From: Lachnospiraceae bacterium
GTDB lineage: Bacteria; Bacillota; Clostridia; Lachnospirales; Lachnospiraceae
Assembly: GCA_021201095.1 (NCBI GenBank)
Contig: JAJQFO010000119.1
Location: forward strand, 12,529 to 57,255
Direction: 5' to 3'
Length of the DNA stretch: 44,727 nucleotides
The translations under genes and the position numbers were made by a program. Positions 2,498 through 28,495 of the stretch are shown piece after piece (within the stretch, counting starts at the first letter, position 1; each line of letters begins with the position of its first letter). The notes beneath the pieces are model-generated. The model did no database searches. It saw only the letters and a program-made list of their open reading frames with translations, and had not been told where the DNA came from.

Positions 2498-2765
2498 TTT
2501 GATTCCCTCCTGTGATAATAAGTAAGGGTTTAAAAAAACCCTCTTACACAGGGTAAAAGGGTGAGCTGAACCGAACTGTTTGATAATTACCAGTCCATCC
2601 GCAGACCAATTCCCCGTGGTCGGGAGCATTCTCTAAATCTATCAGGAAACAGCGAAAATGAATTCTCCTACCTGCTCCTATACGGACACAGGCAGCGACA
2701 GACTCATCTGTCCGCCATTCATGATACCGTTCCCATTCGATCCGTAAAAAATACTCCATTGCGCA

Positions 2766-3141
2766 CAACAGGCAGGTCTCCTGACTTACGGGCTGCGCAG
2801 GCCGCCTTCCCAGTTTCCCAGTGGCATCGTGACCGCGCATGGTAAATATGAAAGCTGAGTAACTATTTGTGAAAATATTGAAAGTTACGAAGCTGTTTAT
2901 GAAATGCAGACCTTTTGATCTTTGTCCGCATCCTGCTTCTCAGCCGCAAATTTACCCGAATACAGTGACGGGATCGCACAGGATTCACACCTGTTTCCCT
3001 CTTAGCTGAACCAAAAATCCTTTCGCCTGCTGTCCGCCGGACGGCAATGCTCTCATCCGCTGTCCGCCAGACGGCATTCCTCTCAACTGCCACCACACGA
3101 AACAGTATCAAAAGGCTTTTCAGCTCAGAACCTGCTGTGAT
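2766..3141 (-). promoter_or_regulatory. Cobalamin riboswitch controlling the cbiK-like gene
   Basis: Read on the minus strand, the class signatures appear in order: P1 strand GCAGGT (3130-3135), GGGAAACAGGTGTGAATCC (about 2991), a C-G-CCCG-TCACTG segment, CCACTGGGAAACTGGGAAGG, and the B12 box GTCAGGAGACCTGCC, whose ACCTGC (2772-2777) closes P1. The element is long (about 375 nt). Part of that comes from a 30-bp tandem duplication in its 5' peripheral arm (3030-3089) and part from about 100 nt between the core and the B12 box. It starts about 10 nt after the predicted transcription start and ends about 270 nt before the gene. B12 riboswitches normally switch genes off when cobalamin is plentiful. 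Confidence 0.93.
3030..3089 (-). repeat. 30-bp tandem duplication inside the cobalamin riboswitch
   Basis: Two adjacent 30-bp units (3030-3059 and 3060-3089) match at about 25 positions. Each contains a small palindrome (GTCCGCCGGACGGC in one unit, GTCCGCCAGACGGC in the other). The duplication lies in a peripheral arm of the riboswitch, outside the conserved core. Confidence 0.8.
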
Positions 3142-21006: not shown

Positions 21007-21034
21007 TGGACATTTTTCTGATGTGTGCTATAAT
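21007..21034 (+). promoter_or_regulatory. Promoter of the Mn riboswitch-oadB transcript
   Basis: TGGACA (21007-21012), 16 bases, then an extended -10 box TGCTATAAT (TATAAT at 21029-21034). Transcription should start near 21041, about 145 nt before the riboswitch. Confidence 0.75.
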
Positions 21035-21071
21035 GCCCCCAGATGTGCAAAAGATCTGCACCCTGTAAGCA

Positions 21072-21136
21072 CTTTACAAACGCCTTATAAACGCATATAA
21101 ATGTCTTGTAAATGCCTTGTAAGGGTCTTATGAGTG
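21072..21136 (+). repeat. Tandem array of degenerate 11-bp units in the leader
   Basis: About six units of 10-12 bases follow each other: CTTTACAAACGC, CTTATAAACGC, ATATAAATGT, CTTGTAAATGC, CTTGTAAGGGT, CTTATGAGTGA. They lie in the transcribed leader between the promoter and the Mn riboswitch. Confidence 0.55.
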
Positions 21137-21186
21137 ATCCTGTCCGCATCAGGAACAGGTTTTAAAACAGCGGATCTGCAGCCGGG

Positions 21187-21278
21187 ATAAAAGGGAGTAG
21201 CCGCCGCCGTCTGGCGGACTTTAAGGCGTCAGGACGATAGAAATATCCGCTTTTTAGTTGAAATGGCAAGACTTTTAT
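21187..21278 (+). promoter_or_regulatory. Mn2+ riboswitch (yybP-ykoY class)
   Basis: P1 is ATAAAAG (21187-21193) with CTTTTAT (21272-21278). The class signatures are present: GGGAGTAGC after the 5' P1 strand, GGCGTCA-GGAC before a GATA-GAAA-TATC hairpin, CGCTTTTTAG after it, and GGCAAGACTTTT at the 3' end. The variable arm contains the palindrome GCCGTCTGGCGGAC (21206-21219). The 3' P1 strand is shared with a terminator, so Mn2+ binding should favour P1, prevent termination and turn on oadB-oadG. Confidence 0.85.
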
Positions 21279-21319
21279 TGCATGCATTTATTTGTGTGCA
21301 ATAAAGGTCTTTTCTTTTT
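21270..21319 (+). terminator. Riboswitch-controlled terminator
   Basis: GACTTTTATTGCA (21270-21282) pairs with TGCAATAAAGGTC (21297-21309) over 13 bp with one G-U pair, followed by TTTTCTTTTT. It uses bases of the riboswitch P1, so the two folds exclude each other. Confidence 0.85.
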
Positions 21320-21517
21320 GCTCTGATCCCATTCATTCCTGCACAATCATACATGCGGAGACTTTCTCCAGCTAATCCTGCACAGTCAGCCAGGAGTATT
21401 CTTTCTCCATCCGTCTGTTGTGCAGAGAGCATGCAGGATATGCCGCAAAAGTTTTGTGCACAATAAGTGCAGAAACAGACAAGAGTCTAAGCAATCATCA
21501 AAACGAGGGAGGAAAAC

Positions 21518-22654
21518 ATGGAATTTTTACTGGAAGGTATTCTAAGTGTCACATGGCAGCAGATTGTGATGTATCTGATCGGAATCCTGCTGATATGGCT
21601 CGCCATTAAGAAGGGATGCGAGCCTTCGCTGCTGCTTCCGATGGGATTCGGCGCGATACTGGTCAATCTGCCTTTAACGGGAGTCCTCAACCAGACGGTG
21701 CAGGGGACGGTGGAGGTCACCGGTATCATCGAATGGCTCTATGAAATCGGCATCGGTGCCTCGGAGGCACTGCCCACACTGCTGTTTATCGGCATCGGCG
21801 CAATGATCGATTTCGGACCGCTGCTCTCCAATCCGATTATGTTTCTCTTTGGAGCCGGCTGTCAGTTCGGTATCTTTGCCGCCATTCTTTTTGCGGCTCT
21901 GCTGGGATTCCCTCTGGCGGACGCGGCATCGATCGGCATCATCGGCGCGGCCGACGGCCCCACAGCCATTCTGGTATCGCAGGTCCTGGATTCCTCCTAC
22001 ACCGGAGCAATCGCGGTGGCCGCTTACTCCTACATGGCTCTCGTACCTATTATACAGCCCATTGTCATCCGGGCAATTACAACGAAAAAAGAGCGCACCA
22101 TTCATATGGAATACCGCCCTGCTGATGTGAGCAAAGCCACACGCATCGCGTTCCCGATTGTCGTAACAATCATCGTCGGCATGGTCGCCCCCTCCTCAAT
22201 CGCGCTGGTTGGGTTCCTGATGTTCGGCAACCTGCTGCGGGAATGCGGCGTCCTGAACGCGCTCTCGGAAACCGCACAGACAACGCTGACCAACCTGATC
22301 ACGCTGCTTCTGGGACTGACGATTTCCTTCAGCATGCAGGCGGAAGCTTTTGTGACGAAAGAAACCATCCTGGTTCTGTGCATCGGCCTGCTGGCGTTTA
22401 TCTTTGACACCATCGGCGGCGTGCTGCTGGCCAAATTCCTCAATCTTTTCCGGAAAGAAAAGATCAACCCCATGATCGGCGCTGCCGGCATCTCCGCCTT
22501 CCCCATGGCGTCCCGCGTCGTGCAGAAAATGGCGGATGAGGAGGAGCATGGGAACGTTATCCTGATGCACGCAGCCGGAGCAAACGTCTCCGGACAAATC
22601 GCATCCGTAATCGCCGGCGGCCTGGTCATCCAGATCGTAGCCAGCTATCTGTAA
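21518..22654 (+). CDS. oadB: Na+-pumping decarboxylase beta subunit (OadB/GcdB/MmdB family)
   Basis: The 378-residue membrane protein starts at 21518 behind GGGAGGAAAAC. OadB-family subunits couple release of CO2 from carboxybiotin to Na+ export. About nine to eleven hydrophobic helices are present. Family motifs include LLFIGIGAMIDFGPLLSNP, the GIIGAADGPTAI segment with its key Asp, and the last-helix motif HAAGANVSGQIASVIAGG. The carboxyltransferase alpha subunit, which supplies carboxybiotin, is not in the window, so the subunit is either shared with a complex elsewhere or works alone. It is preceded by a Mn2+ riboswitch and followed by a tiny oadG-like gene. Confidence 0.93.
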   Translation: MEFLLEGILSVTWQQIVMYLIGILLIWLAIKKGCEPSLLLPMGFGAILVNLPLTGVLNQTVQGTVEVTGIIEWLYEIGIGASEALPTLLFIGIGAMIDFGPLLSNPIMFLFGAGCQFGIFAAILFAALLGFPLADAASIGIIGAADGPTAILVSQVLDSSYTGAIAVAAYSYMALVPIIQPIVIRAITTKKERTIHMEYRPADVSKATRIAFPIVVTIIVGMVAPSSIALVGFLMFGNLLRECGVLNALSETAQTTLTNLITLLLGLTISFSMQAEAFVTKETILVLCIGLLAFIFDTIGGVLLAKFLNLFRKEKINPMIGAAGISAFPMASRVVQKMADEEEHGNVILMHAAGANVSGQIASVIAGGLVIQIVASYL

Positions 22655-22731
22655 AGAAAGCGGAGACAGAGCAACAAAAAAGCCTGAATTTAAGCTAAAA
22701 ACCGCTTGAAAATATGAGGAGGAAAAGCAAG

Positions 22732-22863
22732 ATGACACGAATGGAAACCATTATCGCGGCCCTTCAGATCATGGGCAAAGGAATGGGCGGCATTTTCGTA
22801 GCAATTATCCTGATTATGCTGGTTGTATGGCTGATGGGGAAAATGACGAACCGCAAAAAATAA
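22732..22863 (+). CDS. oadG: Small gamma-type subunit of the decarboxylase pump
   Basis: This 43-residue protein (MTRMETIIAALQIMGKGMGG is the N-terminus) starts 6 bases after a GAGGAGGAAAAGCAAG site and ends in KKMTNRKK-like basic residues. It has one membrane helix (GIFVAIILIMLVVWLMG). OadG subunits are small single-helix proteins that hold the complex together and may bind zinc with a C-terminal tail; here the tail is missing. It lies 77 bases after oadB and is followed by a terminator. Confidence 0.8.
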   Translation: MTRMETIIAALQIMGKGMGGIFVAIILIMLVVWLMGKMTNRKK

Positions 22864-25375: not shown

Positions 25376-28300
25376 TTAAGCGAAAACAGTAAGCACAATC
25401 AATGCCGCGCAGGAGAGTACAAACATGATCATGCCCACGTTGAGGTAAGCCGTCCGGAACCGGCTGCCTTTCGGAAGCTCCATCGCCGCCCGTTCAAAGG
25501 TGACGTGCCGCCAGCTGCGGCAGAACAGTACCAGACCCACGATTGCGGACACCACCAGCGCAATGACATAACCGCCGTACAGAGCCAGCTGCGGCAGCAG
25601 CGTTCCAAGGAGTTCGGGCGAAAGGCTTTCCAGACTGGCGAGACCTTCGATGCTATCCAGATTAGCCATGTTTTCAAGATTTTCCAGCGCAGACCAGTCG
25701 ATCGCCTCCAGCAGAGCGGAAGGCACAATGCTTCCCAAAAAGTTGATGCCCATGTGTAATCCTGCCGAGTAGCGCAGCTTTCCGGTTTTCAGATAGATAT
25801 ATCCAAACAGCAGCCCCAGCGCGAACGCGTAGAAAAACTGCGACAGGTTCCCGTGAAAAAGCCCGAACATCAGCGCCGAAGTGACGACCGCCAGCCTCTC
25901 CCCATAACAGCTCATCCGGTCAATCAGCTGCCTGCGGAACACATATTCCTCAATCAGCGGCGCCAGAATGACCAGAAACAGGATTTTCAGCACCAGCGAA
26001 TCCGCCAGCGCGTAAGTCGTGATGGCTGCCTCTGCTGATGTGCCGGTCAGGGCACTGAGTGCGGCAGTGACAAGATTACCGATAATGTTGCCTGCGTACA
26101 TCAGGAAGATTGCGATAAACACAGTGCGTACGAGCTGAGACGGCTTCATTGACTTCCTTGTACGTTTTTCCCTGCTGCTGGCGCCTTGATTTTTATATTC
26201 TTCTACGCTATCGCTTTCATCTGCAGCCGTATTCTTTTTTGTAAAGATGCTTTCATCAGCAATATCGTCATTACCCGCGCTGGTATTTCCATCGCTTTCT
26301 TCTTTTTCGCTTTCTTCTATCTTGCTTTCTTCTATTTTTCTACATTCTATTTTGTTTTTTTCTATTTCGCTTTCTTCTATTTTTTTACCTTCTATTTTGC
26401 CTGCACTCTGGCCCTCCCTGTCATCCATATCGAGAACGTCTTGTCTGGTGCACACTGCTTCGGAACAGGAAGGCACACGGCGGAAAATCAAAAGTCCCAC
26501 CGGCACTGCGATCACATACAGGGGCGCAAACGTGTAGACCCACAGCCCCCATGAGGTCGAGATCCATTCCGGAAAGAGCATCGCAGCGGCAATCTGCAGC
26601 ACAGAAGCAACGGCCAGGATCGCAAAGCAGCCGAAGCCGAGTGTGGAGAAGGTTTTGCGGGCTTCTTCTGCCATATTCTGAGAAATCATGTCCCTGGAAT
26701 CTGTATTCCCCGAAAAAGCTTCTTTGAAAGTCACTGCTCTGACTGCTTCTTTCTGAATCGTTTTCACCCGTGCCGCTTTATCCCTGGGATCCACAAACAA
26801 CGGCGTCAGTGCCAGGAAAACAGCGCCAAGCCCGATGTTGACCACCGCTGCCAGCACTGTGGCTGCAGCGATATGATTAAAAACAATTCCTATCGCGATG
26901 ATTGCCGCATCCGGCAGCAGCCCGAAATAAATAAATAGAATCTGCACCAGCTGTTTTACCAGCTTTCCGGCAGATATCGGCACGGACAGGTTGATGAACG
27001 TGCCGGTGGTCGTCCCGTAAAAATCAATCGAGAGAATAAATGGAATCCACGCCAGCAGGTAAAGCGGATTGACCCGGAAAACTGCTTCCGTGAGGATCAG
27101 CGCCGGAATCAGGTCGAGCAGACAGTTTGCCGTTCCTCCCAGGATTGACCAGAGCAGCTTTTTCTCCGTGCTCTCTGGTATCATCCGAAAAAATTCTTTG
27201 GAGGTATCCTCCTCCAGCGGATTCCCCATTGTGCGCCAGAACGCGAGCGCAGACAGCACAAGAACCACCGGCAGGAATCGAAATCTGTCCGTCCCAGCGC
27301 TGCCCTGCAGATATCTGCACAGCGCAGAAACACCTGCCGCCGCGACCAGATAGAATTCAGCTGTTTTCGTAAAAATTCCCAAATGCGCGAACCGGAAACG
27401 GTTGTAGAGGCTGCGGAAGAAAAAGACATTCGCCCCGCTTCCATAGCGCATTCCGTCCCGGCGGATCTTTTCGCTCCGGTCCTTTTTGCGTTTCACAAAT
27501 CCGGTGCTTTTCTCTGCCTGCCTCACCTCCAGCAGCTCGGCGGTCTCCTCCGATTTCGCCATTGCATCTTCATAAAAATCCGCTTTGATGCTCCAGATAA
27601 TCAGGATAAGCACTACACTCCCTGCAAGGAGTGCAGCCAGACACAGCAGTGCAAGCCGCGTATTTCCCGCAATCGAAAACATACAAAGTCCCTTCAGCCA
27701 TCCCCAGAACGGAATCCAACGCGTGACTTTGTGATTAAAAAATGCTGCTGCTGCCCAAAAATGATCCGAGCCATACGGTCTGCTGCTGAGGAAATATGCA
27801 GCTGCCACCACGAGTACCAGAGCGTAGACCCCTTTCCGCAAATACGGCTTCATGCCAGTATGCGTCGCCGCCAGCGTATAAAACAACACCTGAATCAGCT
27901 TGCCGATTACCAGCGTAAAAATCCAGACCAGTATGATCGCAACCGCGCCCCGGATGCCAAGCCCGAGGTTCAGCACCAGATTCGGGAGCTGCAGCATCAC
28001 ATAAATACTGGAAATCACAAGCGCGCCAATCTGCGTCATCAGCCGGAACAGCAGCACCGACTGCGGCTTCATTGGCGACGCAAACAACAAATTCACATCC
28101 GCTGGCAGAAAAATGCTGCTGAAGCTTTTGTCTGCGCCGATCATCTCAAACAAGAAGACCGCCAGAATGATTCCGCCGACAATCAGTTCAATCAGATCAG
28201 AGGTCGCGTCTTTTCCATTTATTTCAAAGACAAAATCCTCGTCTGAGATTTCAAAGATTGTTTCATCGTCATTTTTATTTCCGTCCGCGCCGAAGCTATT

Positions 28301-28495
28301 TTCATCCGATTCCGCAGCAATTTCAGACGTTTCCTCCGTCTGCTCTTCCCCGACCTCGCTTAACATGCCCGCGCCAAATCCAATCAGTCCGCCCATCAGT
28401 GCACAGGCGAGGATAAAGATCAGCACCCAGGTCTTGAACAGCTTGCGGATCTGGTTCACAAAGGAGTGCAGCGCATAGTAACCATATAATCTCAT
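25376..28495 (-). CDS. ABC exporter permease fused to a CPBP intramembrane protease
   Basis: The 1039-residue protein starts at 28495 with a 4-base overlap (ATGA) with the ATPase upstream. Residues 1-660 are a polytopic permease of the putative ABC exporter type with an early acidic loop (residues 45-90). Residues about 688-772 form a charged linker with KIEES repeats. Residues about 780-930 are a CPBP (Abi) protease domain with all three motifs: EEYVFRR (near 848), FGLFHGN (near 878) and HMGINF (near 916). Further helices end the protein. CPBP proteases process prenylated proteins or serve in bacteriocin maturation and immunity. Joined to a permease and paired with an ATPase, it may cut and export, or clear, a peptide. 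No peptide gene was identified. Confidence 0.88.
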   Translation of the reverse strand: MRLYGYYALHSFVNQIRKLFKTWVLIFILACALMGGLIGFGAGMLSEVGEEQTEETSEIAAESDENSFGADGNKNDDETIFEISDEDFVFEINGKDATSDLIELIVGGIILAVFLFEMIGADKSFSSIFLPADVNLLFASPMKPQSVLLFRLMTQIGALVISSIYVMLQLPNLVLNLGLGIRGAVAIILVWIFTLVIGKLIQVLFYTLAATHTGMKPYLRKGVYALVLVVAAAYFLSSRPYGSDHFWAAAAFFNHKVTRWIPFWGWLKGLCMFSIAGNTRLALLCLAALLAGSVVLILIIWSIKADFYEDAMAKSEETAELLEVRQAEKSTGFVKRKKDRSEKIRRDGMRYGSGANVFFFRSLYNRFRFAHLGIFTKTAEFYLVAAAGVSALCRYLQGSAGTDRFRFLPVVLVLSALAFWRTMGNPLEEDTSKEFFRMIPESTEKKLLWSILGGTANCLLDLIPALILTEAVFRVNPLYLLAWIPFILSIDFYGTTTGTFINLSVPISAGKLVKQLVQILFIYFGLLPDAAIIAIGIVFNHIAAATVLAAVVNIGLGAVFLALTPLFVDPRDKAARVKTIQKEAVRAVTFKEAFSGNTDSRDMISQNMAEEARKTFSTLGFGCFAILAVASVLQIAAAMLFPEWISTSWGLWVYTFAPLYVIAVPVGLLIFRRVPSCSEAVCTRQDVLDMDDREGQSAGKIEGKKIEESEIEKNKIECRKIEESKIEESEKEESDGNTSAGNDDIADESIFTKKNTAADESDSVEEYKNQGASSREKRTRKSMKPSQLVRTVFIAIFLMYAGNIIGNLVTAALSALTGTSAEAAITTYALADSLVLKILFLVILAPLIEEYVFRRQLIDRMSCYGERLAVVTSALMFGLFHGNLSQFFYAFALGLLFGYIYLKTGKLRYSAGLHMGINFLGSIVPSALLEAIDWSALENLENMANLDSIEGLASLESLSPELLGTLLPQLALYGGYVIALVVSAIVGLVLFCRSWRHVTFERAAMELPKGSRFRTAYLNVGMIMFVLSCAALIVLTVFA
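26290..26420 (-). repeat. KIEES-coding tandem repeats in the ABC-CPBP linker
   Basis: Repeats of about 15 bp (plus-strand TTCTATTTTGC/TTTCTTC pattern) encode KIEGKKIEESEIEKNKIE and further KIEES-type units between the permease and the protease. Base composition is much more AT-rich than in the flanking code. Confidence 0.75.

Follow-up and report, generated by a model that had tools for sequence, protein, structure and literature searches.

Background

The closest described relative of the leader reported here is the Mn2+ riboswitch of the yybP-ykoY type (RF00080), with which it shares the L1 sequence GGAGUA, the layout of the helices P1, P1.2, P2 and P3, the overlap between P1 and a terminator, and an L3 adenosine within UCA, as in A41 of L. 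lactis. It differs from this class in that it is not reported by RF00080, shows no visible P4 and has a pair of genes for OadB and OadG as its target. Genes for MntP (PF02659) and P-type cation ATPases stand behind the same switch in this bacterial family, as one and the same covariance model shows, but these proteins are unrelated to OadB-OadG, for which Mn2+ export is putative. UPF0016 and TerC are further families behind the Mn2+ switch. Passages of PMC6754395 describe how an adenosine in L3 (A41 in L. lactis, A48 in X. oryzae) reads Mn2+ through its N7.

The closest described protein is the OadB of StOAD (PDB 6iva/6iww; PF03977; TIGR01109). According to passages of PMC7274780, Na+ and H+ bind competitively to the StOAD beta subunit, OAD exchanges Na+ without substrate, and residues 61-84 of gamma are needed to hold alpha; R304A and N311A inhibit the enzyme only moderately, and Glu40 is critical for decarboxylation. 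The OadB described here matches 6iva over nearly its full length (E = 3.2e-91) and keeps Asp203, Ser382, Asn412 and Glu40, but has 378 residues instead of 433, with Ala and Thr in place of Arg304 and Asn311. Unlike ordinary OadBs, it lies across a branch with SH-aLRT 99 and has no alpha or BCCP genes adjoining. The accompanying OadG resembles OadG and OadG_rel_small (PF04277, NF040909) in its N-terminal transmembrane part, but it has only 43 residues, with no linker or alpha-binding tail, and both matches are below the curated cut-offs.

Results and discussion

An Mn2+ riboswitch ahead of oadB and oadG

The window (the whole stretch of 44,727 nucleotides that was analysed) carries on its forward strand a sigma-70-type promoter-like site at 21007-21034 (TGGACA-16-TATAAT, with TG ahead of the -10), which agrees with 11 of 12 consensus positions; it is assigned by consensus scoring only, the start not being mapped. 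An earlier reading of the DNA, made from the sequence alone (the sequence-only reading), had named the same extended -10 promoter. Between this site and the aptamer, the leader contains an 11-base repeat in some 4.5 copies (21074-21122; 79% matches).

The aptamer extends from 21187 to 21278 and consists of P1 (21187-21193/21272-21278), P1.2 (21200-21202/21265-21267), P2 (21204-21208/21213-21217) and P3 (approximately 21218-21258). The L1 sequence GGAGTA (GGAGUA in the RNA), a hallmark of the Mn2+ riboswitch, is located at 21194-21199, and in alignments with relatives the A at position 21231 in L3 falls on the Mn-sensing A41 and A48. Folded alone, the aptamer formed P1, P1.2, P2 and P3 and left L1 open (-27.0 kcal/mol). 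A P4 helix was seen neither in the fold of the window sequence nor in the structure of our covariance model R1 (see below), so that the junction appears three-way; the sequence-only reading, which had spoken of a complete yybP-ykoY element, was right about the Mn2+ aptamer (70.3 bits with R1), though 'complete' seems too strong a word.

The expression platform is an intrinsic terminator at 21268-21311, a stem of 19 pairs (5 G-C) followed by a T-rich tail, TTCTTTTT. Since it takes up the 3' strand of P1, the two structures are mutually exclusive, as had been claimed before, and when the aptamer was folded together with the downstream hairpin, the terminator displaced P1. All 39 switch leaders described below have a hairpin like a terminator that overlaps the 3' strand of P1, compared with 172 of 2000 random places; one of these leaders (L164) is degenerate and lacks the GGAGTA of L1.

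Downstream, oadB (21518-22654; 378 aa; PF03977, 487.9 bits) is followed by a minimal oadG with one transmembrane helix (22732-22863; 43 aa; PF04277 23.1 bits, below the cut-off of 27). The start of the 43-residue form at 22732 has a ribosome binding site and looks right, in accordance with the gene order and length originally given; a 49-aa form of the same protein reached 19.3 bits with the NCBIfam model OadG_rel_small (NF040909), below its cut-off of 25. The gap of about 200 bp between terminator and oadB, for which a separate promoter had been considered, contains no promoter-like site on the + strand at a threshold of 9/12 in a consensus scan.

Two other features of the window are a cobalamin riboswitch (2754-3045, - strand, 62.4 bits) and a gene for a 1039-aa protein with a putative ABC exporter domain (PF16962) and a CAAX protease (Rce1-like) domain (25379-28495, - strand).

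Assignment of the leader by its relatives

RF00080 does not recover the copy in the window, neither at its gathering cut-off (45 bits) nor at E ≤ 5, a result that counts against the sequence-only reading by the condition it had set itself, and the class assignment therefore rests on relatives. These were collected by scanning contigs with the window OadB protein and keeping the best 80 of 594 confirmed places, in 20 of which a pattern of L1 and the strand following L3 was found upstream of oadB. One further match, 54 bases long and ahead of an ordinary OadB (L066), was left out as chance-like; R1 gave no match there. From 16 of the other oadB leaders, with the window excluded, we built the covariance model R1, the structure of which was set by hand. 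Four leaders were kept out of it, three because the junction differs or aligns badly (L008, L009, L031) and one because of a long insert (L040). All four were nevertheless found by R1, with scores of 56.4, 29, 23 and 22.9 bits.

In the alignment of 16 leaders, 94.3% of the cells were paired and 19 of the 23 pairs showed two-sided changes, with P1, P1.2, P2 and P3 all covered. None of 500 shuffles scored as high on any of five measures. Sliding by 1-3 columns reduced the pairing to 29-41%, a control that is biased towards the structure, since this had been chosen on the same alignment. Applied to the window, R1 matched 21184-21281 with 70.3 bits (E = 2.3e-15), and this was its sole window match up to E = 10. 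Its match to the mntP leader of E. coli was weak (20 bits, E = 0.078).

How much weight the silence of RF00080 deserves can be seen from 14 control genomes, among them E. coli, B. subtilis and L. lactis, which we take to carry the Mn2+ riboswitch: only 2 of the 14 passed the gathering cut-off, and 9 gave a match at the loose E ≤ 10. We therefore set this cut-off, which looks strict, aside as the sole judge. At E ≤ 10, RF00080 picked up the oadB leader of four relatives among the 20 whose genomes were searched, none above the cut-off (L029, 35.5 bits, E = 3e-8; L017, 33.6 bits, E = 2.2e-7; and, more weakly, L068, 19 bits, E = 0.002; L040, 13.2 bits, E = 0.26). Two weak RF00080 matches in the genome of the window (L001, L002; 17 bits) had no L1/L3 pattern and were dropped. 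Other Rfam matches in the leader at E ≤ 5, to microRNA families, were treated as chance, and so was Streptococcus SSRC10 (17.4 bits), which aligned onto the same L1 and P1.

Targets of the switch in the bacterial family

R1 gave a match at E ≤ 0.001 in 96 of 150 genomes of the same family. For the best 73 R1 matches, the first of six reference families within 700 bases downstream was taken as the target: MntP in 27 cases, a P-type ATPase in 26, OadB in 7, a CaCA exchanger in 4, CNNM in 3 and a Na+/Pi cotransporter in 1, with 5 belonging to none of the six. The share of OadB may be inflated, because R1 was made from oadB leaders. Mn exporters as the usual targets of this class (MntP, UPF0016, P-type ATPases, TerC) had been put forward by the sequence-only reading; of these, MntP and P-type ATPases are seen here too and together make up 53 of the 73. 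The five unassigned targets are, by eye, three ABC transporters, one MgtE-like protein and one SPFH protein. Look-alike ABC transporters (an ATPase, then a large membrane protein, by eye) follow an R1 match in L198, L203 and L220 and may be one more type of target for the Mn2+ switch.

In 35 of the 39 switch leaders, including that of the window, no gene separates the switch from oadB. In the other four, a single gene intervenes, which encodes CNNM (L151, L153, L154) or a Na+/Pi cotransporter (L007). Furthermore, the switch of L011 stands ahead of a P-type ATPase gene, with oadB some 2 kb away, and L016 has a gene for such an ATPase divergent to oadB. A second R1 match in the genome of the window (L120, contig C67:20591-20688, - strand; 38.3 bits, E = 1.6e-5) has a terminator and represents an Mn2+ switch ahead of a gene whose small product (114 aa) matches no Pfam family.

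The orphan OadB clade

Across the 150 genomes, the OadB matches listed form two groups that are clearly apart in identity, one with 61-100% identity to the window protein (35 genomes; one match, at 75%, is partial) and one with at most 50%. In a tree of 119 proteins, 74 orphans are split from 45 ordinary OadBs by a branch with SH-aLRT 99, so that the orphan clade is set apart in the phylogeny that the sequence-only reading had called for. Two orphans from genomes already represented (L160, from the genome of L011, and L183, from that of L003) were removed from the tree, the neighbour counts and the ligand comparison, but stay in the residue and OadG counts; one genome is counted twice per side in the residue counts.

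With R1 at E ≤ 1, the switch was detected ahead of 39 of 75 orphan oadB genes, the window included, and ahead of none of the 45 ordinary ones; in 36 of the 75 no switch was detected. Thus, the pair of switch and orphan oadB recurs in 38 further loci. Nine of the 39 switches score below 30 bits (19.8-29.3; L008, L009, L031, L164, L169, L170, L172, L178 and L181), all nine at the expected position upstream of oadB. The switch is present in early and late branches of the tree, with 21 label changes by a quick method. We regard the riboswitch and its tie to the orphan OadB clade as solid. This link was not reported in the open-access papers that we searched.

The relic explanation, in which the leader is a remnant or a sibling class with a different ion as its ligand, oadB being in effect constitutive, can appeal to the blindness of RF00080 to the window copy, the 36 orphans with no switch detected and the degenerate L164, but it is very improbable in view of the conserved L1, Mn-sensing adenosine and P1/terminator logic, the strong covariation and the R1 matches at mntP and P-type ATPase leaders.

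Probable separation from the decarboxylase

The window oadB has no gene for an alpha subunit, a carboxyltransferase or a BCCP beside it. By tblastn, OadA, carboxyltransferase or biotin-carrier genes were found within 2.5 kb of only 1 of 75 orphans, compared with 41 of 45 ordinary OadBs (mean total flank 3.9 kb and 4.3 kb, respectively). One orphan, L042, adjoins OadA and BCCP genes. An OadG-like short ORF of 31-89 aa follows oadB in 65 of 76 orphan rows. It has fewer than 60 residues in 56 of the 65 and at least 60 in nine; the finder was a simple pattern, and the remaining eleven rows gave none. With its 43 residues, the OadG of the window leaves no room for the alpha-binding tail.

Among the Na+-site residues (StOAD numbering), Asp203, which is Asp146 in the window protein, and Ser382 are kept in 76 of 76 orphan rows and Asn412 in 75 of 75, and Glu40, Tyr229, Asn373 and Arg389 are conserved as well. 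Arg304, on the other hand, is retained in just 5 of the 76 orphan rows compared with 39 of 46 ordinary ones, and Asn311 in 46 of 76 compared with 43 of 46. Decarboxylation has likely been lost in the orphan clade, judging from these comparisons, but the residues alone do not prove it, because Glu40 is kept and R304A and N311A have moderate effects in StOAD.

A proposed cation carrier under Mn2+ control

We propose that, when Mn2+ is absent, the nascent leader would form the terminator at 21268-21311, and that Mn2+ bridging L1 and L3 would hold P1 and sequester the 5' arm of the terminator, so that the polymerase could enter oadB-oadG. We infer that Mn2+ should turn oadB on, because a P1 stabilised by Mn2+ should block termination, as the geometry and passages of PMC6754395 indicate. 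A passage of PMC11477304 labels Mn switches as 'OFF' switches; we did not adopt this label, since the same geometry and passages indicate antitermination. The products would be an elevator-type beta subunit as in the biotin-dependent Na+ pumps and a bare transmembrane gamma helix, freed of the carboxyltransferase and biotin machinery. Most likely, OadB-OadG would then be a cation carrier that works by itself and brings internal Mn2+ down, through exchange of Mn2+ for Na+ or H+ or through Na+ movement in support of Na+-coupled exporters, e.g. CNNM.

A decarboxylation-free cation exporter that relieves Mn stress was one of two functions that the sequence-only reading had considered, and it is the one that our results favour. 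The evidence is that 74 of 75 orphans have no nearby OadA, carboxyltransferase or BCCP gene, that the OadG is short and Arg304 mostly lost, and that the gene shares control with, or is likely co-transcribed with, genes for MntP, P-type ATPases, CNNM and CaCA exchangers. It is also backed by the genome of the window (99.4% complete by estimate, 5.35% contamination), in which we found no match to MntP. The only candidate for a P-type ATPase in this genome is a short match to PF00690 (31.1 bits), which seems to lie near the end of contig C185. The exporter reading is weakened by the retention of Glu40 and Arg389, by our finding no new metal ligand, by the 36 of 75 orphans with no switch detected, by the low scores of nine of the 39 switches, and by the single-OAD_beta genomes and OadB-less clusters described below. 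A complementarity between orphan OadB and MntP was likewise unsupported, as MntP is absent from 3 of 35 orphan-bearing genomes compared with 19 of 115 others. On balance, we lean slightly towards the Mn2+ riboswitch being a transcriptional ON switch for a decarboxylase-free OadB-OadG cation carrier in Mn stress.

A first alternative makes the orphan OadB a spare beta subunit, used by a biotin-dependent decarboxylase with genes elsewhere in the genome and induced by Mn2+ since the carboxyltransferase partner or the metabolism is Mn-linked. The conservation of Glu40, Asp203, Tyr229, Asn373, Ser382, Arg389 and Asn412 would suit such a role, and so would the position of L042. Moreover, the absence of an alpha subunit, noted by the sequence-only reading, holds beside oadB but not for the whole genome, which contains a cluster of OadA, carboxyltransferase, BCCP and OadG genes on contig C345. 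This cluster, however, has an ordinary OadB of its own, and a second full-length OAD_beta gene is present not only in this genome but also in 19 of 24 tested orphan genomes. The other five have only one (G015, G017, G020, G085 and G137; G017 with an additional fragment). PF02436, an OadA-type domain that also occurs in pyruvate carboxylase, was found in the genome of the window, in 21 of 24 orphan-bearing genomes and in four of these five; the one with no match, G015, a genome of unspecified completeness, has both the switch and an orphan OadB, which speaks against such a role.

In G085 and G137, there is a carboxyltransferase-OadG-BCCP-OadA cluster without its own OadB, so that the orphan OadB could be used in trans there; but the orphans of these two genomes have no detected switch. 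Carboxyltransferase, BCCP and OadA without OadB could also form a transcarboxylase. The loci L190 and L191 are carboxyltransferase-OadG-BCCP-OadA clusters with no OadB gene, and these might be transcarboxylases or users of orphan OadB. Since, in addition, the OadG falls below alpha-binding length in most orphan rows, we consider the spare subunit rather unlikely.

A second alternative is that OadB-OadG carries Na+ only (Na+/H+), re-exporting or balancing Na+ while CNNM and CaCA proteins move Mn2+ or other divalent ions. The Na+ site is conserved and no clade-specific acidic or soft metal ligand stands out in the orphan OadBs, which argues for Na+, not Mn2+, as the ion carried. The competition of Na+ and H+ in the StOAD beta subunit and the substrate-free Na+ exchange (passages of PMC7274780) are in keeping with this alternative, as is the gene order with CNNM and the Na+/Pi cotransporter. 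On the other hand, 53 of the 73 best switch targets belong to the MntP and P-type ATPase families, and in 35 of 39 switch leaders the oadB gene follows the switch directly. We think that a carrier of Na+ alone is unlikely.

Returning to a carrier that would lower internal Mn2+, we consider direct Mn2+ export by OadB-OadG plausible and testable. In its strongest form, this would make the orphan OadB and the bare OadG helix an undescribed class of Mn2+ exporter, i.e. an elevator carrier derived from a biotin-driven Na+ pump, working without the decarboxylase under an Mn2+ riboswitch in many Clostridia, and the main Mn2+-switch exporter in the genome of the window with no MntP match. This stronger form we put forward tentatively, as a possibility that we would not yet bet on.

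Conclusions

In summary, our results suggest that a pump subunit has been re-used in many Clostridia against excess manganese. If this is true, a transporter type from a primary Na+ pump would join the families behind the Mn2+ switch, and the large clade of orphan OadBs that is now filed under 'decarboxylase subunit beta' (TIGR01109) would gain a testable role. It would also provide an example of a pump subunit cut free of its energy source.
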